Of a DNA stretch of 64,000 nt, positions 20,707-59,857 are shown piece after piece. A program made the position numbers and the translations under genes. This DNA comes from Lactiplantibacillus mudanjiangensis (lineage in GTDB: Bacteria; Bacillota; Bacilli; Lactobacillales; Lactobacillaceae): NCBI RefSeq assembly GCF_005405385.1, contig NZ_BJDY01000007.1, positions 310,001 through 374,000 of the forward strand. The letters run 5' to 3'. The number at the start of each line of letters is the position of its first letter. The first letter of the stretch is position 1. A model generated the notes under the pieces. That model did not search any database. It had not been told where the DNA came from and saw nothing but the letters and a program-made list of their open reading frames with translations.

Positions 20707-21218
20707 CTAAGGGTTGAAAGATAAGTATGACGATAAATGCTTTACCAGAATTGACTTAAGTCATGCTAATTGGTCACCTACGCCAGCCAGCGATTCTGCC
20801 GGCTGTGGGACCGACTCCAGCCAAAGTACGAGCTTCCGTCTCGCTTTTGAGCCTAGCCAAAACCACTAGTCTCAAAAGTCGTCCATATCGTAAAGTCCGG
20901 GGAAATCACTCGGACTAACGATATTTTCACGGCCGGCGCCATCACTGGCTGGCTCCGGTTGTATTGCGAATACCAATCAATTTTGTAATCACCATCATAA
21001 ACGAGAGTGAGTTCACATTGAGCCCAGCCGTGGGGCTCTTGAAACACGGGTTGGGTGGTTCGAAACGACGGTTCAGACCGCTCTTTGGCTGAACCGGTCC
21101 GCCCACAGCTTTCCGGCTCAATGTGGACGAACGATAGGTGGCAAGTACGACTAGTTCTGATTGATGAATACCTACCATATCAACGATTATTGCTAAAAAG
21201 CATCTTTCAACATTTTAG
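20707..21218. repeat. element A, copy 1 (two units, full ends)
   Basis: Begins CTAAGGGTTGAAAGAT and ends with the inverse of CTAAAATGTTGAAAGAT, the best terminal inverted repeat pair with copy 5. The left unit has stem arms CAGCCAGCGAT and ATCACTGGCTG. The right unit has CACATTGAGCC and GGCTCAATGTG, but its central hairpin is deleted. It contains no gene. Confidence 0.85.
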
Positions 21219-21224
21219 GAATAA

Positions 21225-21246
21225 AAAAAGACCGGTTCCCCAGTCT
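21225..21246 (-). terminator. azlD terminator
   Basis: Minus-strand AAGACTGG-GGAA-CCGGTCTT followed by T7, shortly after the azlD stop codon. Confidence 0.75.
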
Positions 21247-21261
21247 TACTAACATTATCAT

Positions 21262-21612
21262 TTAAATATGCAGCACTAACACAAAAATCATCACTGAAGC
21301 TAACCCAATAATGACAGAAAGTGTCATCGACCGAGTTCGATAGGCAATAATACCAACTAAAATGGATGAAATAATCATCCCTAAATTACCTGAAGTCATG
21401 ATATTGTACTTACTATCTACAAACACACTTTTAACCACTAAAGCCGTAAATAACGACACTGGGACAAAGCGCATCCATTCATTAAACCATTCTGGAATTT
21501 GTCGCTTCGTGAAAAATAAGAGTGGGAAGAACCGTGGAATAAAAGCCACGACCGCGCAACAAATAATCAACCATAAATGGTCCATACTGCTCATTGAACT
21601 GACTGATTGCAT
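21262..21612 (-). CDS. azlD: branched-chain amino acid exporter subunit AzlD
   Basis: Small membrane protein of 116 residues with about four helices, partner of AzlC in branched-chain amino acid export or azaleucine resistance. The AzlD-like segment VAFIPRFFPLLFFTKRQIPE and the ALVVKSVFVDSK stretch fit the family. It starts 20 nt downstream of the azlC stop codon with an AGGAG-type site, so the two form an operon. In the family AzlD is always paired with AzlC. Confidence 0.83.
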   Translation of the reverse strand: MQSVSSMSSMDHLWLIICCAVVAFIPRFFPLLFFTKRQIPEWFNEWMRFVPVSLFTALVVKSVFVDSKYNIMTSGNLGMIISSILVGIIAYRTRSMTLSVIIGLASVMIFVLVLHI

Positions 21613-21632
21613 AATAAAAACTCCTCGGGGCC

Positions 21633-22400
21633 CTACTTGTCAGATTCTTCCATGGCCGACTGACCAGTGGGATCGTGAATCTTATACAATAAGTGACTTT
21701 CTGGCTTATGTGCGATTAATTGCCGCTCAATAAAATAGCCTAACAACGAGGCGATTAACGTTGAGACGACTAACCCTAACGTACTCTTCATCAAAACGAG
21801 GAAGAACAACGTTAATACGGCCGACATCGCACAGACTAAAATAGTCAAACGACTCTTCGTTTGCATAACGGCCATATAAATAAATAGTGCCGTTAACGCA
21901 AAATCAACCACGCTCAAATTGATGGTTAAGGCGCTCCCAATCAGACTACCAATAATATTGCTGACAGTCCAAAAGAGCAGTGAATAGTGTTCCACCAACA
22001 AAGCTTGCTTAGGTTGCCAATGCTTATCCGTCGCAAATTTTAAATAATTAACCGCATAGTTTTCATCATTCATCGAAAACGCGAACGCAAAGATGAATGG
22101 TAACGGTTGACCCTTTAAATAGCGCGATAAGCTAGACCCTAATAACGCATATCGTAGTTCCAAGAAAAACATCATTAAAATAATCGTTGTCATAGGTGCA
22201 TTGATCGTTAACATCGACGCAATCAAAAATTGGGCGCCGCCGGAAAAGACCATGACGGAAATTAACGCCGTCATTAAATGGTTGAACCCGGCCGCATGCA
22301 ACAAGACCCCACAAGCTAATCCAATGGGGATGTAGCTAAGCCCAAGTGGCATTACTGTCCGTAAAACCATTAACCAATTTGGCTCGTTCTTTTTCACCAA
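21633..22400 (-). CDS. azlC: branched-chain amino acid exporter AzlC
   Basis: Membrane permease of 255 residues with 6-7 helices. AzlC motifs include MPLGLSYIPIGLACGVLL at the first helix, MVFSGGAQFLIASML, and FSMNDENYAVNYL. Together with AzlD it should export branched-chain amino acids. A GAGGCAT ribosome site precedes the ATG. No Lrp-type regulator gene is adjacent, unlike in Bacillus. The C-terminal tail after the last helix is long and hydrophilic. Confidence 0.86.
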   Translation of the reverse strand: MVKKNEPNWLMVLRTVMPLGLSYIPIGLACGVLLHAAGFNHLMTALISVMVFSGGAQFLIASMLTINAPMTTIILMMFFLELRYALLGSSLSRYLKGQPLPFIFAFAFSMNDENYAVNYLKFATDKHWQPKQALLVEHYSLLFWTVSNIIGSLIGSALTINLSVVDFALTALFIYMAVMQTKSRLTILVCAMSAVLTLFFLVLMKSTLGLVVSTLIASLLGYFIERQLIAHKPESHLLYKIHDPTGQSAMEESDK

Positions 22401-22562
22401 GATGCCTCCAGTACCATATCAGTAAAGAATTCTAGCAACATTGTTTACTGTCTATTTGTATAGACATTCGGTTTTAATTTTAACATGTTTCTTGCTGCAA
22501 TCCTACCTTTTGCAAAAGATTGTTCAGCTTCAAGCAGTATGTAAGCGTATCCAGATTGGATT

Positions 22563-23060
22563 TTAATCGAAATGGCGCCCTAAAATGACCAAGTCATTCG
22601 GCCGATGATCCAATTCCGCCACTGCGGGTAGGAATCCCCATTGTTCATAACCAAACTTTTTAAACAATTTAATACTTGGCAAATTGCTTGAGAAAATATA
22701 CGCCACTAACGTTGTTAACCCCACCGTAGTCAGCTGTTTAGCCGCCAACTCTAAAACCTGGCTGCCGACACCTTGACCCTGTACACTTCGATCTAAATAA
22801 ATCGAAATTTCAGCCGTCTTGGCATAAGCCTCACGACCATAAAATGGTGAGAAACTAAGCCATCCAACAACCTGATCTGCTTGTAACACCACCCACATCG
22901 GATAATGTTCTGGCGTGTGTTCTAAAAACCACGCGCGGCGTTGATCCACTGTGACCGGCTTTAAATCGGCCGTCACTTGATGACTTGGAATTGTTTGATT
23001 ATAAATATCGACAATCGTTGGTAAATCTGACATGGTCGCTAATCGTAGCGTCACATCCAT
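22563..23060 (-). CDS. GNAT acetyltransferase, phosphinothricin-acetyltransferase-like
   Basis: 165-residue N-acetyltransferase. The N-terminus MDVTLRLATMSDLPTIVDIY and the following TIPSHQVTADLKPVTVDQRR resemble the PAT/YwnH subgroup. The acetyl-CoA loop is EISIYLDRSVQGQGVGSQVL, with the Q/RxxGxG/A signature QGQGVG. The start ATG at 23060 has GGAGG 8 nt upstream. It stands alone. The substrate could be an amino acid or an amino acid analogue. Confidence 0.78.
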   Translation of the reverse strand: MDVTLRLATMSDLPTIVDIYNQTIPSHQVTADLKPVTVDQRRAWFLEHTPEHYPMWVVLQADQVVGWLSFSPFYGREAYAKTAEISIYLDRSVQGQGVGSQVLELAAKQLTTVGLTTLVAYIFSSNLPSIKLFKKFGYEQWGFLPAVAELDHRPNDLVILGRHFD

Positions 23061-23155
23061 ATTATCCGCCTCCATTCAACGGCCCGGTTGAGCCTAAACC
23101 TATTATACCGTTTTCATGCGTTTTGATTCAATAAACATTATTATCCCATTTTTAC

Positions 23156-23190
23156 AAAAAAAGCGCCTAGGCTTTAACCTAGACACTTTA
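23156..23190 (-). terminator. dacA terminator
   Basis: Minus-strand GTGTCTAGG-TTAAAG-CCTAGGCGC followed by T7. Confidence 0.8.
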
Positions 23191-23195
23191 TTGAT

Positions 23196-24524
23196 TTAGA
23201 ACCAGCTCTTAATCCCGCGCCACATTCTAACAAAAATATTCGCTTTTTCGACGGATTTTTGTGAGGTTAAGTTCACTTGCATCGTCTTTGATTTCGTCCC
23301 ATTGACAACTTGAATGGCTTTTTTATTCAAGCTTAATTTAGCCGTTCCAATGGTCTTGCCATGAGTTAATGGTGCTTGTAACTTTCCGTTAGTCGTTGCT
23401 GACTTCTTCAATGTTGCTACACCGTTTAAGGACGCCGTTGAACTTGTTGGTAAATAGACTTTCGTTGCTTTACTATTGGTGACTAACTTTGTTGATAAAG
23501 TTTTCCCATCTTGCACAGCGACTGATTTAACACCTTTAAGCGTTTGATCTTTAGCAACCGTTGTGGTCGTATAGTTGTGATAGACGTATGACATGATTTG
23601 AGCCGTTTGGGTAAACCGTTCGGTCCCAGTATCACTAGCTGAACCGGCATGCATGACAACTGTGATAATCCGATTACCATTACTGAACTTAACCGTCCCA
23701 GTAAACGCATTTCCGGCTTTCGTTGAGGTCCCCGTCTTCAAACCATCAACTGGTAACGCTGAATAATGTTTAACGAGTCCCTTTAACATGTAGTTGCGGT
23801 TATCCATCTTAGTTGCGGACTTTGTGCCCTTTTCAAACCAAGCATGGGCAATACTAGACGTTTTTAAGACTTCTGGATATTTTGATAAAAGCTTTTGGGC
23901 CACCGTCGCGACATCTTGCGCTGACATTTCATTTTCAGTTGAGCCAGAAACGTTACTGTAACCAATCGTGCTACCAACTTCCTTGTTCGTTAAGCCAGAA
24001 GCATTGATGATCGTGGCGTCAGTAATTCCAAAGGACTTCGCGGTCTTACGCATCAATTGCACAAACTTATGTGGTGAACCTGCAACGGCATCGCCCAACG
24101 CGGTGATCGCCGCATTAGCTGAATAAATTTCAGTAGCATTGTATAGTTGCCGAACGGAGTATTTTTTTGTTGATAATAATGGAACATTCGCATATTCCGT
24201 ATTTTGACTCATTTTAGCAACCGCTTTGCTGACACTAATCTTTTGGTTCCATGAAAGTTTTCCATCATGAATCGCCTTTAAAACCAAGTAAGTACTCAAC
24301 ATCTTAGTCATCGAGGCAATCGCCATCGGCTTGGTACTATTCTTGTTGTATAAAATCTGACCCGTGCTAGCGTCAACGGCAATCGCCGCTTTGGCTGAAA
24401 TTGATGGGGTCGATGCTGCTTGTGCTGTCAAAGTGGCATTGACCACCCCTAATCCTGTGGTCGTGAAAGTGACTGCCGCAACTAGGGCAATCATGGTTTT
24501 CTTTAACTTTCCAGCAAATCTCAT
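23196..24524 (-). CDS. dacA: D-alanyl-D-alanine carboxypeptidase (PBP5 type)
   Basis: Secreted, membrane-anchored low-molecular-weight penicillin-binding protein of 442 residues that trims the terminal D-Ala of peptidoglycan stem peptides. A signal peptide with hydrophobic core is followed by AQAA. Active-site motifs are SxxK at S71-MT-K74, SxN at S135-A-N137, and KTGTS near 263. A beta-rich PBP5_C domain and an amphipathic C-terminus (FVRMWRGIKSWF) follow for membrane attachment. It lies 64 nt downstream of the histidine kinase on the same strand with no terminator between, so it is likely controlled with, and perhaps by, the two-component system. In lactobacilli with D-lactate-ended precursors its role may be limited. 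Confidence 0.92.
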   Translation of the reverse strand: MRFAGKLKKTMIALVAAVTFTTTGLGVVNATLTAQAASTPSISAKAAIAVDASTGQILYNKNSTKPMAIASMTKMLSTYLVLKAIHDGKLSWNQKISVSKAVAKMSQNTEYANVPLLSTKKYSVRQLYNATEIYSANAAITALGDAVAGSPHKFVQLMRKTAKSFGITDATIINASGLTNKEVGSTIGYSNVSGSTENEMSAQDVATVAQKLLSKYPEVLKTSSIAHAWFEKGTKSATKMDNRNYMLKGLVKHYSALPVDGLKTGTSTKAGNAFTGTVKFSNGNRIITVVMHAGSASDTGTERFTQTAQIMSYVYHNYTTTTVAKDQTLKGVKSVAVQDGKTLSTKLVTNSKATKVYLPTSSTASLNGVATLKKSATTNGKLQAPLTHGKTIGTAKLSLNKKAIQVVNGTKSKTMQVNLTSQKSVEKANIFVRMWRGIKSWF

Positions 24525-24588
24525 TTCTCAATTATCCCTTTCCTGAATGCTACTTTTTAGTTTAAATAATTATGCCAATTGAAACAAG

Positions 24589-25749
24589 CTAATTTGCAAC
24601 TTTACGATCTTTTTTCGTTAATGGATGATCGTGATGAACTGGGAGATGAATCACAAAGCTAGTCAAGGCATCATCACTCTGCGCATAAATATAACCGCCA
24701 TGATGCTCCACGATACTTTGCGCAATCGCCAATCCCAGGCCAGAGCCGCCCGTAGCTTTTGAACGTGATTCTTCCACGCGATAAAACCGTTCGAACAGCA
24801 TTCCTAACGAATCAGCCGGAATTCGCTGACCATCATTAGCCACGTGAATCACCACTTCTTCACCACGCTGTTCAGCCTGTAAAATCACATGCTTGGCCCC
24901 AGTACCATACTTAAACGCATTGGTAATCAAATTGTTAAAGACTCGACCGAGTTTTTCTGCATCGGCCTCTAAATAAATCGGCTTAGTGCCAGTTTCAACT
25001 TCAATCGTCAATTGCTTTTTATTTGCTTCTAATTCAAAACTGGCCGCCAATTGCTCCATCATCGCCGTAATATTCAACCGATTGATATTGAGTGGTGTTT
25101 CCGTTTGTCGAACCTTAGTGTATTCGAAGAGGTCTTCTACCAATGATTTCATCTGTGTCGCTTTGTTATAGGCAATGTGCGTATATTTAACGAGATCTTC
25201 TTCAGATTGGTACTGGTGGTTTTCAATCAGCCCCAGGTAGCCAATAATCGACGTCAGTGGCGTCCGAATATCATGACTCACATTGGTGATCAACGCATCC
25301 TTAGAACGCTCAATTTCGCGTTCCTCGTCCATTGAGTGGATGGCTGAATCAACTAGCGCATTGACACTCTCGACAACGCGTTGCGTATCACCCGTTAAAC
25401 TAAAATCGATTCGATGATCAAAGTGCCCTGCCGCAATATAGTGTAATTCACTAATAATATGTCGCAGTTGCATTTGCTTATATCGCCGAATCAATCGCCA
25501 ATACAACACAAACGCATCCGCAATCAACATTAAAGCCACAAAAAGATTTTCATAACTCCAAAGCTGATAATTGGTTGGTCCGATTTTAATTGAGCGTTTA
25601 ATCTGAAAAATCCCACTTTGTAACCCTGGATTATGGGCAATGGCTTGGTTGATCAAGACCACAATTGACAAGTTCAAAAGGAGTAGCAAAATGACGGTTA
25701 CTACTCCTTCAAAGAATAATTCACTTTTTTCGCGTCCTGTTAATTTCAA
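24589..25749 (-). CDS. sensor histidine kinase (VanS/OmpR-partner type)
   Basis: Membrane sensor kinase of 386 residues. Helices at about 14-35 and 68-88 flank a short extracytoplasmic loop of about 30 residues; a HAMP-like linker follows, and the H-box is NVSHDIRTPLTSIIGYLGLI with His159. N-box NLITNAFKYG, F-box FERFYR and G-box GSGLGLAIAQ are all intact. The short loop suggests sensing in or near the membrane, as in VanS and related intramembrane-sensing kinases. It begins 15 nt after the response regulator stop codon and is followed by dacA, which hints at cell-wall signals. Confidence 0.9.
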   Translation of the reverse strand: MKLTGREKSELFFEGVVTVILLLLLNLSIVVLINQAIAHNPGLQSGIFQIKRSIKIGPTNYQLWSYENLFVALMLIADAFVLYWRLIRRYKQMQLRHIISELHYIAAGHFDHRIDFSLTGDTQRVVESVNALVDSAIHSMDEEREIERSKDALITNVSHDIRTPLTSIIGYLGLIENHQYQSEEDLVKYTHIAYNKATQMKSLVEDLFEYTKVRQTETPLNINRLNITAMMEQLAASFELEANKKQLTIEVETGTKPIYLEADAEKLGRVFNNLITNAFKYGTGAKHVILQAEQRGEEVVIHVANDGQRIPADSLGMLFERFYRVEESRSKATGGSGLGLAIAQSIVEHHGGYIYAQSDDALTSFVIHLPVHHDHPLTKKDRKVAN

Positions 25750-25764
25750 AAGTAGCCCTCACTC

Positions 25765-26454
25765 TTACCGCGATTCAATCTTGTAACCAACGCCCCAAAC
25801 CGTTTGGATCACTTTTTCGCCGTCAGTCGCTTCTTCAATTTTATCCCGTAAATGACTCACATGCACCATCACCGTTTTAGCGGAAACAATGCTTTCTTGT
25901 TGCCAAACTCGTTCAAAAATATCATCGGCAGAAAAGACCCGGTTAGGATGGCTGGCTAATAAGTATAAGATACCAAATTCCAAAGCAGTTAGTTGGATAT
26001 CCTTACCAGTCAACGTCTTTACTTCATGGGAATCCTTGTTAATGGTTAAAGGTCCAATATCCAAAACATCAGGTTCATTGGTAGTCACATTGTTTTCAGA
26101 CCGCCGTAACAAGGATTTAACCCGTGCCATGATTTCCAGTGGGTTAAAGGGCTTCGTCACATAATCATCAGCGCCGGTAATTAAACCTTGGATTTTATCC
26201 ATATCACCCGTCTTCGCAGACAAGACCAAGATTGGGAGTTGTGAATCTTTCCGCACTTCTTTAATCACTTCAATCCCATCCATTTCGGGCATCATGATGT
26301 CTAAAATCATCAGGGCAATATCAGGGTTGGTGTTTAACTTAGTCAAGGCTTCCTTACCGTTAAACGCACTAACAGGTTCGTAACCTTCATTTTTAATATA
26401 GATTTCTAATAATTGAGCAATTTCTTTATCGTCATCGACTACTAAAATTTTCAT
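25765..26454 (-). CDS. OmpR/PhoB-family response regulator
   Basis: 229-residue two-component regulator: receiver domain with acidic pocket VVDDDKE, phospho-Asp in ALMILDIMMPEMDG and conserved Lys in VLSAKTG, then a winged-helix DNA-binding domain (LTALEFGILYLLASHPNRVF to YKIESR). It resembles VanR-type regulators. First gene of a likely regulator-kinase-dacA operon. Two overlapping good candidates for its -10 exist near 26500 but no clear -35, so I list no promoter. Confidence 0.92.
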   Translation of the reverse strand: MKILVVDDDKEIAQLLEIYIKNEGYEPVSAFNGKEALTKLNTNPDIALMILDIMMPEMDGIEVIKEVRKDSQLPILVLSAKTGDMDKIQGLITGADDYVTKPFNPLEIMARVKSLLRRSENNVTTNEPDVLDIGPLTINKDSHEVKTLTGKDIQLTALEFGILYLLASHPNRVFSADDIFERVWQQESIVSAKTVMVHVSHLRDKIEEATDGEKVIQTVWGVGYKIESR

Positions 26455-26686: not shown

Positions 26687-26710
26687 AAGAAAAACAAATA
26701 TGATCTAACA

Positions 26711-27982: not shown

Positions 27983-28016
27983 GGCCTGTCACCGATTATC
28001 AGTAACTTTTCATTTT

Positions 28017-28522
28017 GTTAAAGGATCATTATGGTGATAGAAACTATACCAGTACTGATAGTTATGCCAAATTAGCCACCTACGCCAGCCAGTGATTCTG
28101 CCAGCTGTGGGACCGGTTCCAGCCCAAAGTGCGGTCTTCCACCTCGCTTTTGGGCCTAGCCAAAACCGCTAGTCTCAAAAGTCGTCCACATCGTAAGTCC
28201 GGGAAACCCATCCGGTCTAACGATGTTTTCACGACCGGCGCCATCACTGGCTGACTCCGGCTATATCGCGGACACTAATCTAGTAATCACTAATATAACC
28301 GAGAGTGAGCTCACATTGAGCCCAGCCGTGGGAGCTCTTAGCGATTTATCGCTTAGAGCTCGGCGCTTTTGAAACACGGGGTTGGCGGTTCAAAACGACG
28401 GTTCAGATCGCTTTTTGGCTGAACCGGTCCGCCCACAGCGTTCCGGTTCAAGGTGGGCGAACGGCAGTGGCAAGCATGACCATATCAGCAATTATTGCTA
28501 AAAATAGATTTCAGCCTTTAAG
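28017..28522. repeat. element A, copy 2 (two units)
   Basis: Full two-unit copy. Left unit arms are CAGCCAGTGAT and ATCACTGGCTG. The right unit central hairpin has GAGCTCT pairing with AGAGCTC. The ends are diverged: GTTAAAGGAT on the left, and a degenerate ATTTCAGCCTTTAAG on the right. Confidence 0.85.
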
Positions 28523-28546
28523 TTTTAACCGACACCTAAGTAGCAA

Positions 28547-36860: not shown

Positions 36861-36862
36861 CT

Positions 36863-37317
36863 GAATCATTATGGTAGCCAGCGTCTTGCTAAATTAGCCA
36901 CCTACGTCAGCCAGTGATTCTGCAGGCTGTGGGACCGACTGCAGCTAAAGTGCGGGCTTCCGTCTCGCTTTTAAGCCTAGAAAACCACTAGTCTCAAAAG
37001 TCGTCCACATCGTAAGCCCGGAAAAATCATCCGGACTAACGATGTTTTCACGGCCAGCGCCATCACTGCCTGACTCCGGCTATTTTGTGGATGTTAATTA
37101 AGTTTGTGATCACCACTATAACCGAGAGTGAGTCCACATTGAGCCCAGCCGTGGGAAGCTCTTAGCGATTTATCGCTTAGAGCTTGGCGCTTTTGAAACA
37201 CGGGTTGGGTGGTTCAAAACGATGGTTCAGACCGCTTTTTGGCTGAACCGGTCCGCCCACAGCGTTCCGGCTCAATGTGGGCAAACGGCAGGTGGCAAGT
37301 CAATCTACTTTCAATCC
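36863..37317. repeat. element A, copy 3 (two units)
   Basis: Two-unit copy. Right unit arms are CACATTGAGCC and GGCTCAATGTG, and its central hairpin pairs AAGCTCT with AGAGCTT. Ends are worn; the left edge shares GAATCATTATGG with copy 2. Confidence 0.82.
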
Positions 37318-37335
37318 ACAGTATCCCAATTAAAA

Positions 37336-40660: not shown

Positions 40661-40780
40661 AGAGTGGGACAAAAGACGGGTTGCTACCGAGCATAGCCTA
40701 GGAATACGAAGGATTGTGTACTTTCAATCCTTCGTATTCCGTAGCTCGGTTGCATCGTTAGTCTTTTGTCGCACATTTCG
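40661..40780. repeat. element B, copy 3, inside the ABC operon
   Basis: Outer arms GTGGGACAAAAGAC and GTCTTTTGTCGCAC; inner stem GGAATACGAAGGATTG pairs exactly with CAATCCTTCGTATTCC. It lies between the binding-protein gene and the permease gene. Confidence 0.75.
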
Positions 40781-42362: not shown

Positions 42363-42404
42363 AAAGCTGTGATTGACACTAACTAGTCGATCACGGCTTT
42401 TTTT
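42363..42404 (+). terminator. ABC operon terminator
   Basis: AAAGCTGTGATTGAC and GTCGATCACGGCTTT arms (with G-U pairs), ending in T7. Confidence 0.8.
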
Positions 42405-42420
42405 GATGCCAATTTAAATT

Positions 42421-42655
42421 AAACTAAATTAGCCACCTCCGCCAGCCAGTGATTCTGTCGGCTGTGGGGACCGGTTCCAGCCCAAAATCGGGCTTCCATC
42501 TCGCTTTTAAGCCTAGCCAAAACCGCTAGTCTCAAAAGTCGCCCACAGCGTTCCGGCTCAATGTGGGCGAACGGCAGGTGGCAAGCATGACTATTTTTGT
42601 TCAGCGAATACTCGTCATATTAATGCTTACCGCCAAAAAGCAATTTTTGGCCGTT
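42421..42655. repeat. element A, copy 4 (internal deletion)
   Basis: Outer parts of both units remain, but the middle is gone: after CTCAAAAGTCG of the left unit the sequence passes straight to GCCCACAGCG of the right unit. The end keeps a worn GCCAAAAAGCAATTTTTGGC hairpin. Confidence 0.8.
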
Positions 42656-42720
42656 AATCACAATAAATCAAAGTTTGACAACCCAACTTTATCGTTCTAT
42701 ACTTTTACTCACACAATACT

Positions 42721-46079: not shown

Positions 46080-46106
46080 CGATTCCAATAAATAACAATT
46101 GACTAA

Positions 46107-46478
46107 CTAAAAGTTGAAAGCTATTTTTAGCAATGATCGTTGATATGATAGGCATTTATCGATCAAAACTAGTCATACTTGCCACCTACTGTTCGCCCAC
46201 ATTGAGCCGGAACGCTGTGGGCGGACCGGCCCAGCCAAAAAAGCGGTCTGGACCGTCGTTTTGAACCACCTAACCCGTGTTTCAAAGGCGCCAGACTCTA
46301 AGCGATAAATCGCTAAGAGTCTCCCACGGCTGGGCTCAATATGAGCTCACTCTCGGCTAGAATAGTGATTACTAACTAATTAGCATCCGTAATCTGACTG
46401 GCGTAGGTGATCAATTTAGCATAACTTAAGTCAATTATAGTAAAGCTTTTACCGTCATACTTAACTTTCAACCTTTAG
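46107..46478. repeat. element A, copy 5 (one unit, complete ends, 8-bp direct repeat)
   Basis: Ends CTAAAAGTTGAAAG (46107-46120) and, inverted, CTAAAGGTTGAAAG (46478-46465) match at 13 of 14 bases. TTGACTAA occurs immediately outside both ends (46099-46106 and 46479-46486), as expected of a target-site duplication. One unit is complete, with central hairpin arms AGACTCT and AGAGTCT; most of the other unit is deleted. Confidence 0.88.
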
Positions 46479-46511
46479 TTGACTAACTAACGTTAAGTTT
46501 TGCTCAGCTAA

Positions 46512-49694: not shown

Positions 49695-49704
49695 TACCGC
49701 TAAT

Positions 49705-50151
49705 TTGTGTTCAATTGCCGCCTACCGTTTCGTCCACTCAAAGCCGGAACGCTGTGGACGGACAGGCTGAGCCAAAAATCGGTCTCACCCTTCGTTTTGA
49801 ACCGCTAAACCCGCGTTTCAAAATCGCCAGTCTCTAAGCGATAAATCGCTAAGAGACTTCCACGGCTGGGCTTTGAGTGGACTCACTTTCGGCTATATTC
49901 ACTACTATTGAGAATTATCATTAATTAAACAAATAAAACTATTAACTGCAATGTAGCCGGAGTCAGCCAGTGATGGCGCCAGCCGTGAAAACATCGTTAG
50001 TCCGGCTGTTCTTTTCCGGGCTTACGATGTGGACGACTTTTGAGACTAACGCTTTTTGTTAGGCTTAAAAGCGAGGTGGAAGCCCGACTTTTGGCTGAAA
50101 CCGTTCCCCACAGCTGGCAGAATCACTGGCTAACGTAGGCGACTAATTTAC
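49705..50151. repeat. element A, copy 6 (two units, inverted orientation)
   Basis: Opposite orientation to copies 1-3. Its first unit has GTCCACTCAAAGCC and GGCTTTGAGTGGAC, perfectly complementary although the sequence differs from the consensus arm at four neighbouring positions. The central hairpin pairs AGTCTCT with AGAGACT. The second unit pairs AGCCAGTGAT with ATCACTGGCT. Confidence 0.85.
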
Positions 50152-50157
50152 GCTCAC

Positions 50158-50976
50158 TTAATCAAAATACTGATTTAAAACTTGATAAATCCCATCATGA
50201 TTGTTATCCGTTGTGACTAAATCAGCGCCTTCTTTAATGACTTCTGGAGCATTGCCCATCGCTACCCCAATTCCGGCTAAATGCAGCATAGCTAAATCAT
50301 TGTAGTTGTCGCCAAACGCAATCGCATCTTCAGGAGTTAAGTCATCATCGACTAACAATTGTTTTAAAGCCGTGGCCTTAGTGACACCGGCTGCCACAAT
50401 TTCTAGATAAGTATCTTTAGATCGATACGCTGCAATCGCTTTGTAAGTTGGTGTTTGCAACTGGGCATTAATTTCCGTAATTGTATCGGCATCGGCCATG
50501 ATTAGTATTTTATGGATAGGCGCGTTGCTTTTCGCTAACCATGTCGATAAGTTAGTAACCGTTGGCTCGTAACCAATTCCAGCAGCTTCTTGCTTTTCCC
50601 AAGGACCATTGGCTTGAACAAACCAATCATTATTGCTATAAACATTGATCGATGCTTTAGGCCATTTCTTGGCAATAACCTTTTGCACCCGACGCGCAAC
50701 TTTACGATCAATGGGTTCTTCTTCAAAAACTTGTAAGTGATCATCGTCATCAGTCTTAGCCGTTAATGCACCGTTATACGCAATCATGGTAGACTCAATA
50801 CCTAATTGCTTAGCGATCGACCACATGCCTTTAGGCGAACGGGCTGAAGCTAACACCATTGTTGCGCCTTGCCGGACAGCTGCTCGAACACCCGTAATAG
50901 TCGCCGGTAGTAGTTCAGCTTGATCGTTTAAGATAGTGCCGTCAATATCACTCAAAATCAATTTAGGTTTGCTCAT
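50158..50976 (-). CDS. Cof-type HAD-family phosphatase
   Basis: 272-residue haloacid-dehalogenase phosphatase of the type IIB (Cof) group. Motif I is LILSDIDGTILND with the nucleophile Asp, motif II VLASARSP, motif III lysine near KATALKQLL and motif IV AIAFGDNYNDLAML. A cap domain of alpha/beta type lies at about 80-190. It probably hydrolyses sugar phosphates or pyridoxal phosphate-like metabolites. AGGAGG precedes the ATG; the gene lies 4 nt after the DeoR regulator stop codon, so they form an operon. Confidence 0.9.
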   Translation of the reverse strand: MSKPKLILSDIDGTILNDQAELLPATITGVRAAVRQGATMVLASARSPKGMWSIAKQLGIESTMIAYNGALTAKTDDDDHLQVFEEEPIDRKVARRVQKVIAKKWPKASINVYSNNDWFVQANGPWEKQEAAGIGYEPTVTNLSTWLAKSNAPIHKILIMADADTITEINAQLQTPTYKAIAAYRSKDTYLEIVAAGVTKATALKQLLVDDDLTPEDAIAFGDNYNDLAMLHLAGIGVAMGNAPEVIKEGADLVTTDNNHDGIYQVLNQYFD

Positions 50977-53404: not shown

Positions 53405-55411
53405 TTAAGCCGCTTGTTCACCTAGATGTTTCTTCTTTGGAGCCGTTTTAACGTTTTTCACATCAGCATCCGAGAAACCAAACATGTACGTCAACGTGAA
53501 GGAGACGATAATATCTGCAATCGAGGCAATCCAGAAGCCCCAGAAACTAAAGTCGAGGCCTTTCGGGTTAACGAAGGACGTAAATCCGATTAAAGAACCG
53601 GCAAAGCCCCACATATTGACATGCATTAGCCCCGTTAAGAACCCACCAACGGCACCACCGATACTAGCAGTGACGAACGCGCGACCATACTTCAAGTTAA
53701 TCCCATACATCGCCGGTTCCGTTACGCCAGAGAAAGCTGAGATTGTTGCTGGCCAGGCTAATTCTTTGATGCTGGCAACTTTAGATTTCATCGCAATGGC
53801 CAAGACCGCACCACCTTGTGCAACCATGGTAGCGGACACAATCGCATTCAAATAACTGTGGCCGGTTGTGGCAATATCGTTGGCCACAATTGGAATAATC
53901 GCCCAATGTAATCCAAAGATAACCAATACTTGGTAGAAGCCCCCAATGATCAAACCAGAAATGGCTGGACTAAGTTGGTAAATCTTCACAATCCCCAAGG
54001 CCAAGGCACTTGAAAGTGCGGTGATAATTGGCCCAAGGAAAAGCAAAATTGCACCGGAAATTAAAACGACTTCTAGTAATGGGACAAAGATCATTCGTAA
54101 AACGGTTGGAATCACGCGTTTGAGCCATGGTTCCAGTTTAGACGCTAACCAAGCACCCGCAATCATCGGGAAGATGGAATAGGTATAAGAAGCCACATGA
54201 ACAGGTAAACCGAAGAAGTTGGCATTAATGCCCATGCCCAACAAATGACTCGTGACCTTACCAGTCGTTGCGATCCCAACAATCGCCGGATATGTTAAGA
54301 CCCCACCAACAATTCCCATAATAATCGGGTCGGACCCCAATTTCTTCGCGGCTGTAAATCCAACAAAGATTGGTAGGAAGTAAAAGACTGAATCACCCAT
54401 GGCATTAATGATCACATAGGTTGGCGTAGTTGCTGAAACCACTTTAAATGAGGTCAATAACGCTAAGACCCCTTTTAAGATCCCAGAAGCTGCTAACAAC
54501 CCAATAACCGGAATCATAGACCCGGTAATCACACCGATTAAAGCACTAAAACTGTGCTTAACCTTCTGCCAAGGTGTCATCTTCTTCCAAGCAGCTTTAT
54601 TGGCTTCTTTTTCTGATGCAATTGCAGATGCATCATCATCACCAAAACCAGGGCCCAGTTGCTTAACGACCGCATCGTACACATCAGTAACGGCTGGACC
54701 GATAACCACTTGATATTGACCCCCGGCTTTAGCAATATCGATGACACCTTTTAAGTTCCGAATCGTGTCATCGTTAGCTTTGCCATCATCTTTCAAATAG
54801 AAGCGGACTCGCGTGATGCAATGAATCACACTTTTTACATTACCAGCCCCACCAACATTCTCAATAATTTGCGTTGCTAACTGGTCATACTTACCACCAC
54901 CGGTTGACGCTGGCTTTGCCGCAACGGTCGTTGGTTCAGTAACCGAATCTTTGACCTCAACATCGGCCCCAACATCACCGGCTTTAATTGGGCCAACTTT
55001 AGCGGTTAAACTTGCCACCGTTTCACCTGAATTGGTGACTGCCATAATCACGGTAGTTCGTTTACCCGCGTCAACGATCGCGGCTAAATCCATCTGGCCA
55101 ATCTCATCGCCAGCGTTCACTTCATCGCCGACTTTAATAGTTAACTTAAACGGTGGCTTATCTTTAAGCTCCACCGTATCAATCCCCAAGTGAACCAAAA
55201 TTTCTAACCCAGCCGCAGTGGTAAACCCAATTGCATGTAGCGTTGCGGCCACCATTGTGACCTTACCGGCTGCTGGTGCGACAATCTGACCATTGGTTGG
55301 CGCAACCCCCAAACCTTCGCCCATCATACCTTGTGAAAACACTGGATCTTGAACTTCTGACAGTGGCATAATTGTCCCAGTCACTGGTGATAATAATTGC
55401 ACTCGTTTCAT
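53405..55411 (-). CDS. PTS beta-glucoside/sucrose-class EIIABC
   Basis: 668-residue fused transporter with the order EIIA-EIIB-EIIC. The EIIA (Glc type, about 1-150) has LEILVHLGIDTVEL with the phospho-His. A linker rich in Ala, Thr and Val follows, then EIIB (about 180-260) with Cys in IHCITRVRFYLKDD, and EIIC (about 285-650) with ten or so helices and a SATISAFSGVTEPAMYGINL-type loop. The class covers sucrose, trehalose and beta-glucosides. The usual order is B-C-A, so EIIA at the N-terminus is a less common variant. No phospho-glycosidase or antiterminator gene is adjacent. Confidence 0.9.
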   Translation of the reverse strand: MKRVQLLSPVTGTIMPLSEVQDPVFSQGMMGEGLGVAPTNGQIVAPAAGKVTMVAATLHAIGFTTAAGLEILVHLGIDTVELKDKPPFKLTIKVGDEVNAGDEIGQMDLAAIVDAGKRTTVIMAVTNSGETVASLTAKVGPIKAGDVGADVEVKDSVTEPTTVAAKPASTGGGKYDQLATQIIENVGGAGNVKSVIHCITRVRFYLKDDGKANDDTIRNLKGVIDIAKAGGQYQVVIGPAVTDVYDAVVKQLGPGFGDDDASAIASEKEANKAAWKKMTPWQKVKHSFSALIGVITGSMIPVIGLLAASGILKGVLALLTSFKVVSATTPTYVIINAMGDSVFYFLPIFVGFTAAKKLGSDPIIMGIVGGVLTYPAIVGIATTGKVTSHLLGMGINANFFGLPVHVASYTYSIFPMIAGAWLASKLEPWLKRVIPTVLRMIFVPLLEVVLISGAILLFLGPIITALSSALALGIVKIYQLSPAISGLIIGGFYQVLVIFGLHWAIIPIVANDIATTGHSYLNAIVSATMVAQGGAVLAIAMKSKVASIKELAWPATISAFSGVTEPAMYGINLKYGRAFVTASIGGAVGGFLTGLMHVNMWGFAGSLIGFTSFVNPKGLDFSFWGFWIASIADIIVSFTLTYMFGFSDADVKNVKTAPKKKHLGEQAA

Positions 55412-55550
55412 CGCGATTTCCCCCTTTATCTGTCGCGTAAACGCATTCTAAATAATGAACGATCAAAAATAATAGCAGGATGCTTGATGATTATGGAATA
55501 AATGTAAACCATCCTTACTGGTCAACAATCACCGCCTCCCTCAGCTTCAA

Positions 55551-55568
55551 AATAAACCGTTTTCATTG
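55551..55568 (-). promoter_or_regulatory. cre-like site upstream of EIIABC
   Basis: ATGAAAACGGTTTATT on the minus strand agrees with the cre consensus except for A instead of C near its 3' end. It lies about 145 nt upstream of the gene. Bases 55412-55550 contain no recognised RAT-type antiterminator target. Confidence 0.45.
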
Positions 55569-55666
55569 ATCACGTTCATCGTACCTGCGTCTACTTTTAC
55601 CGTCAAATAAAGGCACGCTATTTGTTCGTTCATATCTCAATTATAATAGTCAATTAATTAATTAAA

Positions 55667-56314
55667 CTAAAGAGCTAAGCGCTGGCCAGCGAGAAATGAA
55701 GCCTTAAAATCAGCCGTTGTTTTGACTTGTTTACCAAAATCAACCACCAGCGCATGTGCCTCCCAGGCCGTGGCCAAATCAGGTTGCCAGCTTTGCTGCA
55801 ACTGTGCTTGTGCGGCCATATACTGACGCGGTAATGGCTGTTCCAGCCAAGTCAATAACCGCCGCAAATATGTATCCACAATAATGGTTGGATTATGAAA
55901 GACATACATTGAAAAGTAATCGGCGGTTTCATCGCCAATACCAGGCAACGCCTTGAGCTCTTGACGTAATTGATCAGCCGGCAATGCCCGCAAAGTAGTC
56001 AAATTAAACTCATATTGGGCGGTCCAGCGTGCCAAACTTTGTAAAGTCGGCACTTTACGTGTGTAAAATCCGGCCGGTCGCACTAGCGCCGTTAAGTCGG
56101 CCGATGATAATTGCAATAAGGCTTGTGGCTCAAATTGAGTCGCTCGTTTCAAATTCATTAAGGCATAATCAACATTGCGCCAGTTAGTATTTTGAACCAA
56201 CACGCCACCCCATAAGATTTCCCAAGGTGTTTCAGCTGGCGCGATACCAGCTGTCAACCAGTGACGCGGCCCCATTTCACTTAACATCGTTTGATATAAT
56301 TCAGTAATCGTCAT
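55667..56314 (-). CDS. HhH-GPD family DNA glycosylase-like protein
   Basis: 215-residue protein of the endonuclease III superfamily. The N-terminal segment TPWEILWGGVLVQNTNWRNV is of the family Q-N/T type, the helix-hairpin-helix is LKALPGIGDETADYF and the catalytic Asp is in TIIVDTYLRRLL. The lysine of bifunctional lyases (GVGRKTA) is Glu here, and the four C-terminal iron-sulfur cysteines are absent. So it would be a monofunctional base-excision glycosylase with another substrate, possibly alkylated bases. AAAGGAG precedes the ATG. Confidence 0.8.
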   Translation of the reverse strand: MTITELYQTMLSEMGPRHWLTAGIAPAETPWEILWGGVLVQNTNWRNVDYALMNLKRATQFEPQALLQLSSADLTALVRPAGFYTRKVPTLQSLARWTAQYEFNLTTLRALPADQLRQELKALPGIGDETADYFSMYVFHNPTIIVDTYLRRLLTWLEQPLPRQYMAAQAQLQQSWQPDLATAWEAHALVVDFGKQVKTTADFKASFLAGQRLAL

Positions 56315-56392
56315 TTATTCAGGTCTCCTTTACAGTTGTCATCAAAAGCTTACCTTAACGAGCTGATTAAGTGGGATTAAAAGTTTGCATAA

Positions 56393-56432
56393 AAAATGAG
56401 GGCGACGACAATTGTCGTGACCCTCATTTTGA
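56393..56432 (-). terminator. terminator of the 56478 gene run
   Basis: AAAATGAGGG-CACGAC-AATTGTCGT-CCCTCATTTT stem, minus-strand T6 following. Confidence 0.85.
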
Positions 56433-56477
56433 TGTTTGATGATTTTTTTAAACGGGTGTTAGTCACCCACTCTGGTT

Positions 56478-56720
56478 TTAGCTACGTTGAACGGTCAATA
56501 CAATGTCGGCCTTTTTATTAGCTGGCTTAACGGTTTCTTGATAGTTTAAATCAGCATCGTCAAATAATTTTTTGATTTCGGTATTCACTAGATCCAAGGC
56601 CCGTGTATCACCGTTTTGTTGGCGAATATAGACCACGTATTGATCTGGTTGTTCTTCCAAATCATAGTCAACATCTTCATCGTTTAAAATCACATAGATT
56701 AACTTACGTTCTTTGTTCAT
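56478..56720 (-). CDS. 80-residue uncharacterised protein
   Basis: Small soluble protein beginning MNKERKLIYVILNDEDVDYD, with a strand, an acidic stretch and helical C-terminal half (LDLVNTEIKKLFDDADLNYQ). No recognised domain. GAGGGGTAA is a good ribosome site. It lies 26 nt downstream of the FMN reductase gene and likely shares its transcript. Confidence 0.65.
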   Translation of the reverse strand: MNKERKLIYVILNDEDVDYDLEEQPDQYVVYIRQQNGDTRALDLVNTEIKKLFDDADLNYQETVKPANKKADIVLTVQRS

Positions 56721-56746
56721 CCGAAATTACCCCTCAACTATTATTT

Positions 56747-57304
56747 TTATGCTTCTTTAATCCGTGCTAATTCATGGACAAATTTTAAGTAATTCTGCAC
56801 ACATCGATCTAACCCAGCAACCGTTGTTTGATCAATCAAATCACCGTTATTATCAAACTTATTTTGAACGGTACTCATCAAAAACTCGTTACCTGGTAAC
56901 GTGCGCGCAGCAACGCCAGGTGCATCCAAAATTTGTCGTAACATACCCTGTGCGCGGACAGTTCCTAATGGTCCCATGGTTGCCCCGATAATCATCGCCG
57001 GCTTGCCTTTCAGTGGATGTTCCACTCGCGATAACCAATCAATCGCATTTGCCAAGACGCCGGGAATCCCACGATTATACTCTGGTGTGACAAAAATCAC
57101 GCCATCAGCAGTTGTAATCAGCTTTTTAAATTCGGTTACCACCTCAGGGGCTTCTAATTCGATATCTTGATCATAAAATGGCAAGGTTGCTAAATCTGGA
57201 ATGACGACGTCAATTTGATCAATATACCGTCGTTGCACAAACTTAGCTAATTGTTGGTTGTAAGATGCTTTTCGGATACTCCCAACGAGAGCCACAATTT
57301 TCAT
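56747..57304 (-). CDS. NADPH-dependent FMN reductase (azoreductase-like)
   Basis: 185-residue flavodoxin-fold enzyme. MKIVALVGSIRKASYNQQLA is the FMN-binding start, VIFVTPEYNRGIPGVLANAI, with the PEYN motif, is the second signature and HPLKGKPAMIIGATMGPLGT the third. It reduces FMN or quinone/azo compounds with NAD(P)H. ATG at 57304 has AAGGAGG 7 nt upstream; the frame extends to 57379 without a site. A cre-like sequence (TTGAAACCGGTTCCGC on the minus strand, one mismatch) lies at 57365-57380. Confidence 0.9.
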   Translation of the reverse strand: MKIVALVGSIRKASYNQQLAKFVQRRYIDQIDVVIPDLATLPFYDQDIELEAPEVVTEFKKLITTADGVIFVTPEYNRGIPGVLANAIDWLSRVEHPLKGKPAMIIGATMGPLGTVRAQGMLRQILDAPGVAARTLPGNEFLMSTVQNKFDNNGDLIDQTTVAGLDRCVQNYLKFVHELARIKEA

Positions 57305-57537
57305 GCGCGAACCCTCCTTTAAGCTCGTTATTAACCTAAGTATACCAGTTTTTTTGAATATCAGCGGAACCGGTTTCAAGTTTACAAAAACTTTTAATCA
57401 TTTTTCAGTTTAACCAGTATGCCGATCAATCAATACCAAGGTTTCTTAACTTTTTCCAAAACTACCACCCTCAGCTTCTCCCGCTCTCGACCAGTCTGTT
57501 ATACTACATGATAGAGAATTTGATCGGGGGTTTTAAT

Positions 57538-58788
57538 GTGTATTATCGTGGTGAAACGCTAGATTTTGTGAATATGCTTCTCACTGAAACCACTGTCCCA
57601 TTAATGCGGGCACGGTTGGTTTTTACTAGTAATCTCGACATCGAACGGCTAAAAGCCGCGGTGCTAGCTTCAGCCCAAATCGTCCCCGAAATTTTTGCCC
57701 ATTATCAAGGTGAACGTAATCGGTTCGAAGTGACGACCCAACAAGTCGATGACCTCGTCATTGAAACCCAAAGTCCTTACAGTCCCGAGAACTTTGATTT
57801 TGACTTCAGCACGGGACCACAATTACGCCTATTCGTCATTCATCATGATCAATATGATGTCTTGCAAGCCTTTATGAGCCACTTATTGACTGACAGTGTC
57901 GGTTTTAAGGAATATCTCTATCTATTGGCCAAAGCATATAATAACGACGATCTGACAACCTTACAAAATGAACGCCGGTTACGTCCGATCATTACCAAGT
58001 TACAACACCAACGGCAACGTCCCCGTACTCACCATCAGTTGCCGGGAACGCCGGTTAAACTACCACATTACCAAGGCATTAACTTGCGCCACATCGGCCA
58101 TATTATGTTGACAAGTAAGCAATTTATGCAAGTCCGCCGAATCGCAAAAGCACAGGATGTTGGTATTAGTGAAGCCATCTTAGCGGCTTACGCTAAAGCG
58201 TTGCAAGTTCTGACTGGACATACCACCATCACGTTGCCATATCCGATTAATTTTCGGCATTTTACACCAACCGATGATGGCACAACTCGTATTGCCAATC
58301 TAACGGCAATGGTCTACTTAAATATTCAAGTCCCAGTTGACGAGCCTTTTAATACCTTGGTTCAACATGTCCACGCCTTGCTGGCAACCGAACGAACGCA
58401 AGCGGTTTTCCTATCACGACTCGTTAACTTACAAAAGATGAACCATACGATGCCGGTTGGCGTCATGCGTAAGTTCACCCGTCGCTGGCTGGCTCAGCAA
58501 CCGTTAACCTATACTAACTTTGGCGTCATTGACCAACAGCGCCTACAATTTCACGGTCTCACCGTTGCTAACTGTGTCTTCTCGGGCGCCTTTCAACCAA
58601 CACCAGCAATGGAAATTGCCGCAAGTACTTTTGCCGGGACTTGCACCTTGAGTTTTAACAGTATTGGCTCTGAACGTGATTATCAACTTGGTATGAAAAT
58701 TTTAGAAAATATCCAAGCTCAATTACTCGTCTGGTCACAAACAACCTCTACGACGGCCACAGCTGCTGTCGCTAATGATGCCCACTAA
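57538..58788 (+). CDS. free-standing condensation-domain-like acyltransferase
   Basis: About 416 residues, resembling the condensation/CoA-dependent acyltransferase superfamily (NRPS condensation domains, PapA, WES). The first domain has the active-site-like motif AFMSHLLTDSVGFKEYL, where HLLTD stands for HHxxxDG (first His replaced by Ser, Gly by Ser). The second has LTYTNFGVIDQQRL and SFNSIGSERDYQ near the C-terminus. No adenylation or carrier domain is present. GTG at 57538 with GGGGG 5-7 nt upstream is chosen; an ATG at 57508 lies close to the TATACT box. Substrate unknown; it might O- or N-acylate a lipid or small molecule. Confidence 0.62.
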   Translation: MYYRGETLDFVNMLLTETTVPLMRARLVFTSNLDIERLKAAVLASAQIVPEIFAHYQGERNRFEVTTQQVDDLVIETQSPYSPENFDFDFSTGPQLRLFVIHHDQYDVLQAFMSHLLTDSVGFKEYLYLLAKAYNNDDLTTLQNERRLRPIITKLQHQRQRPRTHHQLPGTPVKLPHYQGINLRHIGHIMLTSKQFMQVRRIAKAQDVGISEAILAAYAKALQVLTGHTTITLPYPINFRHFTPTDDGTTRIANLTAMVYLNIQVPVDEPFNTLVQHVHALLATERTQAVFLSRLVNLQKMNHTMPVGVMRKFTRRWLAQQPLTYTNFGVIDQQRLQFHGLTVANCVFSGAFQPTPAMEIAASTFAGTCTLSFNSIGSERDYQLGMKILENIQAQLLVWSQTTSTTATAAVANDAH

Positions 58789-58911
58789 CCGACTGGTGCG
58801 CTGGCAAATTGCCGACGCATCAGTTTTTGTCTGGCTGGCGTTTCTAAATTGGAATCTTTCTAAAAAGTGTGGTTTAATAGGGGTGAATCTTAGCAAAGGA
58901 GGGACCGCATC

Positions 58912-59394
58912 GTGGCAACAGATATGTTAAATCAAGCGATCCAACAGTTAAAAGACCACAAAATTCGGGTCACACCGCAGCGGCAAATTATTTTGACCTA
59001 TCTGGTCACTCATCATAATCATCCATCGGTGGAAACGATCTACCAAGCACTCGATACACAATTGCCAAATTTGAGTTTGGCTACTGTGTACAACACATTA
59101 AAGTTATTTGTCGATCTCGGTATCGTAATCGAATTACAAAATGGCGATGCCGGCACCCATTACGACTTCTTCGGTCGTCCTCATTATCATGTAGTTTGTG
59201 AAAATTGCGGCAAAATTACGGATGTCTTTGAGCCTGATTTACGTGACGTGGATGCCAAAGCCGCTGAATTATCTGGCTATCTCGTCACCAGTCATAACAT
59301 GGAAGTTTATGGACTCTGTCCAGACTGTCAAAAATTACTCGGTGTCACTAAAGTTGCTGACTTAAAACGACTTAATTTAAAACATGCTGACTAA
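58912..59394 (+). CDS. perR: Fur-family peroxide-responsive regulator (PerR-like)
   Basis: 160-residue dimeric metalloregulator. Winged helix IRVTPQRQIILTYLVTHHNH and SLATVYNTLKLFVDLGIVIE, and structural zinc cysteine pairs CENC and CPDC. The regulatory-site residues DFFGRPHYHVVCENC (Asp, His, His) resemble PerR more than Fur, in which Glu often replaces the Asp. It would repress peroxide-stress genes when Fe or Mn is bound. GTG start at 58912 has AGGAGG about 9 nt upstream. Its own promoter shows no clear PerR box. Confidence 0.85.
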   Translation: MATDMLNQAIQQLKDHKIRVTPQRQIILTYLVTHHNHPSVETIYQALDTQLPNLSLATVYNTLKLFVDLGIVIELQNGDAGTHYDFFGRPHYHVVCENCGKITDVFEPDLRDVDAKAAELSGYLVTSHNMEVYGLCPDCQKLLGVTKVADLKRLNLKHAD

Positions 59395-59857
59395 TTAAAG
59401 ATTAAAAGATGATTATGTCGATAGACACCGTATCAGCACTGGTTTAGTGGTTACCTGCGTCAGTCAGTGATTCTGCTGGCTGTGGGACCAGCTCCAGCCA
59501 AAGTGCGGGCTTCCACCTCGCTTTTGAGCCTAGAAAATCGCTAGTCTCAAAAGTCGTCCACATCGTAAAGTCCGGCGCCATCACTGACTGACTCCGGTTA
59601 TATCGTGGTAGTTAATTGATCTAGCAGTCACCAGTATAACCGAGAGTGAGCTCACATTGAGCCCAGCCGTGGGAAGCTCTTAGAGATTGGCGCTTTTGAA
59701 ACGCGGATTTTTGCGGTTCAAAACGACGGTTCAAACCGCTTTTTGGCTGAACCGGTCCGCCCACAGCGTTCCGGCTCAAGGTGGGCAAACGGCAGGTGGC
59801 AAAGCAAGTCTATTTTTGATCAGTGATCATTGCTAGAAAGTCACTTTCGATCTCTAG
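59391..59857. repeat. element A, copy 7 (two units)
   Basis: Left unit arms CAGTCAGTGAT and ATCACTGACTG are changed together relative to copy 2 (CAGCCAGTGAT/ATCACTGGCTG). Right unit central hairpin is shortened. Ends resemble worn forms of the terminal repeat (CTAGAGATCGAAAG on the inverted right end). Confidence 0.83.

Follow-up and report, generated by a model that had tools for sequence, protein, structure and literature searches.

We analysed a stretch of 64,000 nucleotides (nt) from Lactiplantibacillus mudanjiangensis (contig NZ_BJDY01000007.1, positions 310,001 to 374,000), hereafter the window, whose own numbering is used throughout. It contains seven copies of a repeated intergenic element, for which the best explanation, one that we consider probable, has two layers: the copies would be miniature inverted-repeat transposable elements (MITEs) mobilized by an insertion sequence (IS), and their interior would be an older folded unit that is spread through the family Lactobacillaceae and kept at the DNA level. 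In the first layer, an ISPepr1-like DDE transposase of the IS4 family would have moved the copies in trans by recognizing the terminal sequence CTAAAGGTTGAAAG, and would have inserted them into A+T-rich targets, of which 8 bp were duplicated. The copies would then have persisted mainly just behind gene ends, and they now look stranded in this genome, because no such transposase was found there. The tie between copies and IS comes from comparison, and the transposition step is what we infer from it. In the second layer, the interior would be the older family-wide unit, here arranged as an inverted pair. Its fold would be kept as DNA, either as a hairpin in single-stranded DNA or as a cruciform, since the covariation is almost purely Watson-Crick, and would serve the persistence or spread of the element itself rather than a host gene, since species of a single genus differ widely in their unit counts, some having no unit and others at least 150. 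This second layer as a whole we likewise infer.

Terminal repeats and target duplications

Full copies are ~540 nt long and terminate in CTAAAGGTTGAAAG and its reverse complement. The DNA fetched from this genome holds 85 distinct copies, of which 35 carry both ends (at most three mismatches to CTAAAGGTTGAAAG) and 23 carry one. The copies with both ends range from 293 to 556 nt, mostly from 488 to 556 nt. The exact terminal 14-mer occurs 71 times in the genome, and the reversed control sequence does not occur at all. Of the 35 two-ended copies, 30 lie between direct repeats of 7-9 bp that differ at one position at most; when left and right flanks were paired at random, the mean was 1.47 of 35 and the maximum in 1000 shuffles was 7 of 35. 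The duplicated target sequence is 76% A+T. Both ends are present in three of the seven window copies. One of these three, copy 5 (46107..46478), is flanked by an exact 8 bp duplication, TTGACTAA, located by flank comparison at 46099..46106 on the left and 46479..46486 on the right, and there is no clean duplication at the other two.

An empty site was found for copy 3, the one window site of the seven that the orthologous-site comparison covered. In L. daowaiensis, the corresponding interval is 80 bp long, versus 526 bp with the element in the window, and the covariance model of the unit (see below) has no match there. The four genes at this site are in the same order in both species, with amino-acid identities of 96, 68, 95, and 81%.

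Elements of ~140-200 nt that have the same terminal repeats and no complete unit also occur, at 1501-1701 of locus L062 in this genome and at 1501-1642 of locus L097 in genome G017.

A candidate mobilizing element

Sister genomes have terminal repeats at the ends of some contigs, and these led to the IS. One locus (L206, genome G004) is 1565 bp long and has perfect ends, the same as those of the window copies. It contains an intact frame of 451 amino acids that matches NF049925 (IS4 family transposase) with 481 bits, against a cut-off of 250, and its translation shows, by eye, the complete YREK motif as defined in PMC2266710. The flanks of L206 share, by eye, only a 5 bp match and no clean 8 bp duplication; 8 bp duplications were seen by eye at L207 and L208, and a 1562 bp copy (L250) has ACAGTAAA on both sides. 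Same-ended copies of the IS (L250-L252) occur in two further genera. In addition, genome G017 holds a broken copy of the IS. The ISPepr1 subgroup is described in PMC2266710 by the YREK motif, a length of 1500-1600 bp, a 5'-CT end, and A+T-rich duplications of 7-8 bp. When the end consensus YT-AA-YTT---A is laid against CTAAAGGTTGAAA, seven of the eight specified positions agree by eye, position 7 being G.

The window copies have terminal inverted repeats and a target duplication, possess no transposase of their own, and share their ends with an autonomous element. Because of the shared ends, the target duplications, and the identified autonomous partner, we classify them, on sequence grounds, as MITEs of an IS4-family (ISPepr1-like) element. 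The window genome itself (G000) has no NF049925 match at E <= 0.001; it contains a transposase-less remnant that carries the same end.

In the six IS loci, the covariance model gives no match at E <= 1; this IS thus does not include the structured interior. Across the family, units are present in 24 of the 51 genomes with the IS family and in 41 of the 200 others (Fisher p = 0.0003), and, counting only genomes where the IS family scores above the cut-off, in 12 of 24 (p = 0.012). Both p values ignore kinship and genome size, and the association carries little weight.

Structure of the unit

The covariance model was built from 24 aligned units, which came from seven genomes and one viral contig. 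The underlying alignment (A1) leaves out a chance pattern match (L095p2306), further units of type A, and all units of type B from this genome, A and B being the two units of an inverted pair; sequences with N were excluded at unit extraction.

The unit is ~190 nt long and has five helices. The outer stem, P1, carries one hairpin, P5, as well as a short stem, P2, within which lie two more hairpins, P3 and P4. In hairpin P3, the motifs GACCGG, AGCC, GCGGTCT, and CCTCG are nearly invariant, and the middle pairs of the stem that they frame change together between species. In this genome, unit A has partly lost its P3 pairing and unit B retains it. A pseudoknot between GACCG and CGGTC in the head was considered by eye and not taken further, as it would clash with the hairpin that covaries and shows next to no variation in its letters.

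According to RNAalifold, two-sided changes occur at 30 of the 39 pairs in the 24 units. In a larger alignment of 132 units, they occur at 38 of the 39 pairs, none of 500 shuffles scored as high on any measure, and 88.9% of the cells at paired positions are paired, versus 67.9% after shuffling and 31-45% after sliding; note that the model guided this alignment, which leans towards it. The preliminary description of the window called the elements highly structured, and the copy on which folding was tested (copy 2, 28017-28522) agrees with it far beyond chance: z is -9.8 for DNA and -8.3 and -8.2 for the two RNA strands, and in each of the three cases none of 100 shuffles folded equally well.

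Distribution, pairing, and gain or loss

Units were found at E <= 0.01 in 19 of 21 genomes of the genus. Their number is 136 to at least 150 in ten of these 21 genomes, 92 in one, and 3 to 29 in eight, and two have none. The exact terminal 16-mer is found in nine of the 21 genomes, and G005 and G013, with at least 150 units each, are without it. In the family Lactobacillaceae, single units or inverted pairs occur in 65 of 251 genomes and 13 of 40 genera. A search of the order at E <= 0.001 matched 14 of 295 genomes, 12 of them in the same family; the two outside it are weak matches.

The pairing of units follows a nearly fixed rule: two units within 450 nt of each other have facing orientations in all 59 distinct cases from this genome and in 38 of the 42 from elsewhere, which makes 97 of 101 in total. 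Solitary distinct units at E <= 1e-4 number 16 in this genome and 42 elsewhere, although a partner that scores below this threshold may exist for some of them. The ends of pairs were compared in 22 rows from the genus and 21 from other genera, three repeated loci (L086/L130, L101/L175, and L131/L186) being counted once. In the genus, both IS ends are present at 5 and at least one end at 10 of 20 distinct pairs, a set that was partly picked for its ends. The other 20 distinct pairs come from four other genera; an IS end flanks one of them on a single side, and no pair there is flanked by IS ends on both sides. From this distribution, the units look older than, and independent of, their IS4-type carrier.

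A site in another genus bears on how single units come and go. In 10 of its 15 genomes the same gene and its 3' flank were matched, and behind this gene the covariance model detects a unit in G177, G132, G233, G155, G217, and G199. In G248 (L271, reverse strand, near 2002), the feet of the unit are joined, TTGCCACCT directly to ACGGTTACT, exactly at the position of the hairpin in its relatives; at that site, G513, G512, and G515 are without unit and without feet. The gene tree makes G248 the sister of four species that carry the unit, but species with and without a unit alternate in it, so that gain and loss are not separated by the tree. The feet GCCTGCGGCTG and CCTCCGGCTA are the conserved margins that flank the stem of the unit in genus g16. 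Because the feet are conserved unit margins in g16 too, exact loss of the unit, leaving joined feet, is the simpler reading of G248, a reading that concerns one site. Behind the same gene, loci L273 and L274, from two species, contain two units in direct tandem, and the preceding terminator is, by eye, also repeated. The short element L062 mentioned above had been considered a possible excision scar; this was withdrawn, as it shows a left foot and an internal deletion of the unit.

REP/BIME elements (repetitive extragenic palindromes and the mosaic elements that they form) and IS200/IS605 elements move as single-stranded DNA without target duplication. A single unit could be a mobile hairpin of this kind, an idea in keeping with the existence of solitary units (58 distinct ones at E <= 1e-4), with the conserved feet around the stem in g16, and with the one species that lacks the hairpin exactly between its feet when six relatives have the unit at the orthologous site. 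However, there is just one such site, and ordinary deletion between short CCT repeats would produce it as well, which leaves this explanation improbable in our judgement.

A unit also appears in a phage-like contig. The 4.9 kb contig L119 of the IMG/VR collection contains a single complete unit at 236-378 (109.9 bits), ~420 bp upstream of a small-terminase frame, and encodes a large terminase that shares 96.7% identity with its counterpart in Lactococcus phage 4268. A role in packaging was dropped as a general explanation, phage 4268 having no blastn match to the L119 unit. Searched against phages by blastn at E up to 1, this unit gave only 31 nt matches, in eight Gordonia phage records. A pattern scan of viral contigs picked out six, of which L119 carries a unit according to the model and the other five, with 63-70% G+C, were judged by eye to be chance matches. 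Searches by blastn, which diverged units could escape, found no match to a window copy or a relative in the plasmid collection, and none to the relative in the phage collection.

Maintenance of the fold in DNA or in RNA

RNA helices accept G-U pairs, and palindromes maintained in DNA should not favour them. We therefore took the 100 units with the best scores among the 132, thinned them to 33 of less than 75% identity, and compared these with RNase P RNA from 30 of 61 matched genomes of the family, aligned and folded in the same way. RNase P was substituted for a tRNA control, which was dropped because the fetched DNA contained only three tRNA matches. Among 1598 paired cells of the units, 38 (2.4%) are G-U and 65 (4.1%) are A-C, so that the opposite strand reads 4.1% and 2.4%. 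RNase P has 437 G-U (13.4%) and 30 A-C (0.9%) among 3261 paired cells. When RNase P is read on the wrong strand, it gives 3.0% G-U and 4.9% A-C and resembles the units on their aligned strand; neither strand of the units resembles the right strand of an RNA. The ratio of one-sided to two-sided changes is 0.09 or 0.14 in the units, depending on the strand, and 0.35 in RNase P (0.09 on its wrong strand). Because strong covariation goes together with few G-U pairs on either strand, these comparisons favour a fold kept in DNA over one kept in RNA, be it through selection or through arms that template each other.

The unit might nevertheless function as RNA: transposons would have spread a structured RNA, either non-coding or acting in cis, and selection would act on the fold of that RNA, a reading to which the checks in the preliminary description (RNA-seq, Rfam) point. 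It would account for the multi-branch fold, the conserved hairpin letters AGCC..GCGGUCU, and the strong covariation, and both strands of the tested copy fold as RNA with z near -8; an excess of A-C over G-U, detailed below, also persists to 80% thinning. Against it stand the wobble frequencies, 2.4% or 4.1% by strand compared with 13.4% in RNase P, and the arrangement of the pairs: because paired units face each other, a transcript across a pair would hold one unit in sense and one in antisense. Moreover, Rfam 15 has no gathering-level match in the whole window, and a search at E up to 10 with one copy and four related loci yielded, at the elements, only matches far below gathering, such as a chance-level mir-266 match (E 9.8) that overlaps the unit in L107. 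We thus regard an RNA as unlikely, and the RNase P comparison in particular does not favour it. The Rfam search also identified a true T-box in L092, which is unrelated to the elements.

In a second alternative, the fold is a by-product: the arms of a hairpin template each other during replication or repair, and palindromes in ageing parasitic DNA stay perfect without selection. Near-pure Watson-Crick covariation and the scarcity of one-sided changes between standard pairs (0.09 or 0.14, against 0.35 in RNase P) are what such templating would leave. However, among 70 units with less than 80% identity, conservation reaches at least 90% at 12 of the 67 consensus positions that are unpaired, and its mean is about the same at unpaired positions (0.68) as at paired ones (0.70). 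The facing arrangement of pairs is, in addition, nearly invariant across genera. Templating alone is not enough, because it predicts neither of these, and we consider it a rather doubtful account of the fold.

Several observations weigh against the explanation that we prefer, that is, MITEs mobilized by the IS around an older interior folded as DNA. Only 35 of the 85 distinct copies keep both terminal repeats within three mismatches, and most copies are therefore recognized by their interior alone. This IS does not explain the older spread of the units, because no tested pair outside the genus has ends on both sides. In the inner helices, A-C exceeds G-U by 174 to 74 in the 132 units (p = 2e-10), by 85 to 44 at 80% thinning (p = 0.0004), and by 35 to 21 at 70% (p = 0.08); the corresponding figures for 134 units of this genome are 113 and 31. 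The lean could mean that the strand opposite the aligned one folds as RNA or as single-stranded DNA. The outer stem P1 leans the opposite way (59 G-U, 37 A-C), and when the lean is counted by base pair it is not significant at any thinning. Finally, the units have diverged further, with a mean identity of 0.59, against 0.72 in the RNase P control.

A broader reading joins all parts into one. The units would form a family-wide class of folded-DNA repeats of Lactobacillaceae, ~190 nt long with five conserved helices, and selected as DNA; a unit would face its partner when paired, and the class would extend over at least 13 genera, reach at least 150 units per genome, appear in a phage-like contig, and be capable of exact loss at its feet. 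In Lactiplantibacillus it would have been captured between the ends of an IS4-family transposon and would have reached ~200 copies in one species. That all of this holds together is possible, and we offer it tentatively.

Copies in the window and in the genome

Comparison of the window with itself, in direct and inverted register, unites the seven loci in one repeat family. All seven also match a profile that was derived from 30 loci in this genome, and the covariance model finds 12 units at them (E 1.5e-34 to 6.7e-6) plus one fragment (E 0.78). The preliminary description was right that related copies lie at seven places between genes and in both orientations. Its statement that each consists of two inverted units is true of five (those it placed at 20707, 28017, 36863, 49705, and 59391) and fails for the two at 42421-42655 and 46107-46478.

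Copy 1 (20707..21218, + strand, by profile and covariance model) has unit A followed by inverted unit B, with covariance matches at 20790-20936 (+) and 21032-21100 (-, partial); terminal repeats are recognizable on both sides, and the target duplication is no longer present. Copy 2 (28014..28523, +; units 28092-28238 (+) and 28322-28451 (-)) has decayed terminal repeats, and copy 3 lies at 36861..37325 (+; units 36914-37057 (+) and 37145-37275 (-)), both likewise by profile and covariance model. Copy 4 (42402..42657, +) is an internal-deletion hybrid with a single unit-like match at 42449-42578 (+). Copy 5, on the - strand, is internally deleted and retains unit B (46202-46333, +) and a remnant of the other end, with terminal repeats at both ends. 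Copy 6 (49702..50168, -) has the opposite orientation, with units at 49739-49869 (+) and 49979-50126 (-). In copy 7 (59390..59861, +), which has both terminal repeats with at most three mismatches, the units are at 59467-59607 (+, one hairpin deleted) and 59663-59779 (-). Mechanical open reading frames of 63-78 amino acids overlap some copies only; no common frame was seen, although frames were not tested copy by copy.

The genome comprises 3.29 Mb in 13 contigs. A search of the genome gave 228 candidates, of which the best were scored (41 rows), and copy number was therefore estimated by sampling. A sample of 20 stretches of 20 kb each (400 kb) contained 24 loci, which extrapolates to ~200 copies per genome and bears out the genome-wide excess that the preliminary description had left to be checked; the window, with seven loci in 64 kb, is denser than the genome average. 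Sample and window together give 31 loci, including two fragments of less than 100 nt, one of which is cut by the end of a stretch. At the 29 loci that could be classified, the flanking genes, as called by our own simple gene caller, are convergent in 14 cases, in tandem in 13, and divergent in 2; 400 gene pairs in the same DNA serve as background and comprise 61 convergent, 276 tandem, and 63 divergent ones. Convergent genes flank nearly half of the classifiable copies and divergent genes only 2 of 29, and the elements might be thought to be kept for a host function, for example, two-way termination or insulation between convergent genes. However, selection against insertions near promoters predicts the same pattern, the model matches nothing in two of the 21 genomes of the genus and 3 to 29 units in eight, and L. 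daowaiensis manages without the element at the orthologous site; we find a host function very improbable. The bias in context is what purging of insertions near promoters would leave, and a host function is not needed for it.

The window also holds a second, different intergenic repeat, which starts with AGAGTGNGACAAAAGACG and whose two copies (16651-16736 and 40661-40746) are 85% identical; the stretch adjoining the unit in L107 looks, by eye, related to it. A direct repeat of 81 nt occurs at 9655-9735 and 13315-13395 (84% identical).

Relation to known repeat families

The window copies add one more member to a known kind, MITEs of an IS, with an interior that is a family-wide folded unit for which no name was found and whose conservation looks more DNA-like than RNA-like. 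The preliminary description knew of no name for the family. The match to an IS-derived MITE that it named as its refutation is half there: by their ends, their duplications, and their IS4-family partner the copies are such MITEs, although no published MITE name was found. For the interior, the impression of an unnamed family stands: the unit was found in none of the six IS loci, occurs in 12 other genera, and has no gathering-level counterpart in Rfam, and the literature searched, by title or start of abstract, contained no description of this unit family.

The interior of a MITE is not expected to be conserved. Here, gene-less repeats of different genera have conserved a complex fold, apparently at the level of DNA, and they provide a test case for what maintains structure in DNA rather than RNA. 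In practical terms, bacteria of food and of the gut carry a large repeat family for which no annotation was found and which affects genome assembly, typing, and the interpretation of intergenic gaps; a covariance model that detects the unit now exists.

Like IS-derived MITEs in general, the elements are gene-less and shorter than 600 nt, share terminal inverted repeats with an IS, have 8 bp duplications, and are intergenic and present in high copy number. They differ in that their interior is a conserved pair of multi-helix units rather than a shrunken IS, and in that the unit occurs in 13 genera and, where tested outside the genus, is without these ends on both sides. With respect to the ISPepr1 subgroup, the presumed mobilizer, the partner IS agrees in transposase family, length (1565 bp), YREK motif, 5'-CT end, and A+T-rich duplications of 8 bp, as described in PMC2266710; the ISPepr1-like IS and the MITEs here have only their ends in common and not their interiors, and one of the eight end positions is off the subgroup consensus.

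In the BOX elements of Streptococcus pneumoniae, according to PMC3049150, the terminal repeats resemble those of an IS, ISSpn2, target duplications are present, and the authors judge the repeats to be parasitic. BOX and the present elements are alike in high copy number, IS-like terminal repeats, target duplications, predicted structure, and variable length. Compared by description and not by sequence, BOX is modular with tandem boxB, whereas the elements here consist of two inverted copies of one fold. REP/BIME elements (PMC2817692 and PMC3733652) likewise form hundreds of foldable units, often in alternating orientation. However, a REP is a palindrome of 20-40 bp, so that the unit here, with ~190 nt and five helices, does not fall under a short-palindrome definition, and the two-ended copies here, unlike REP/BIME, were inserted with target duplications.

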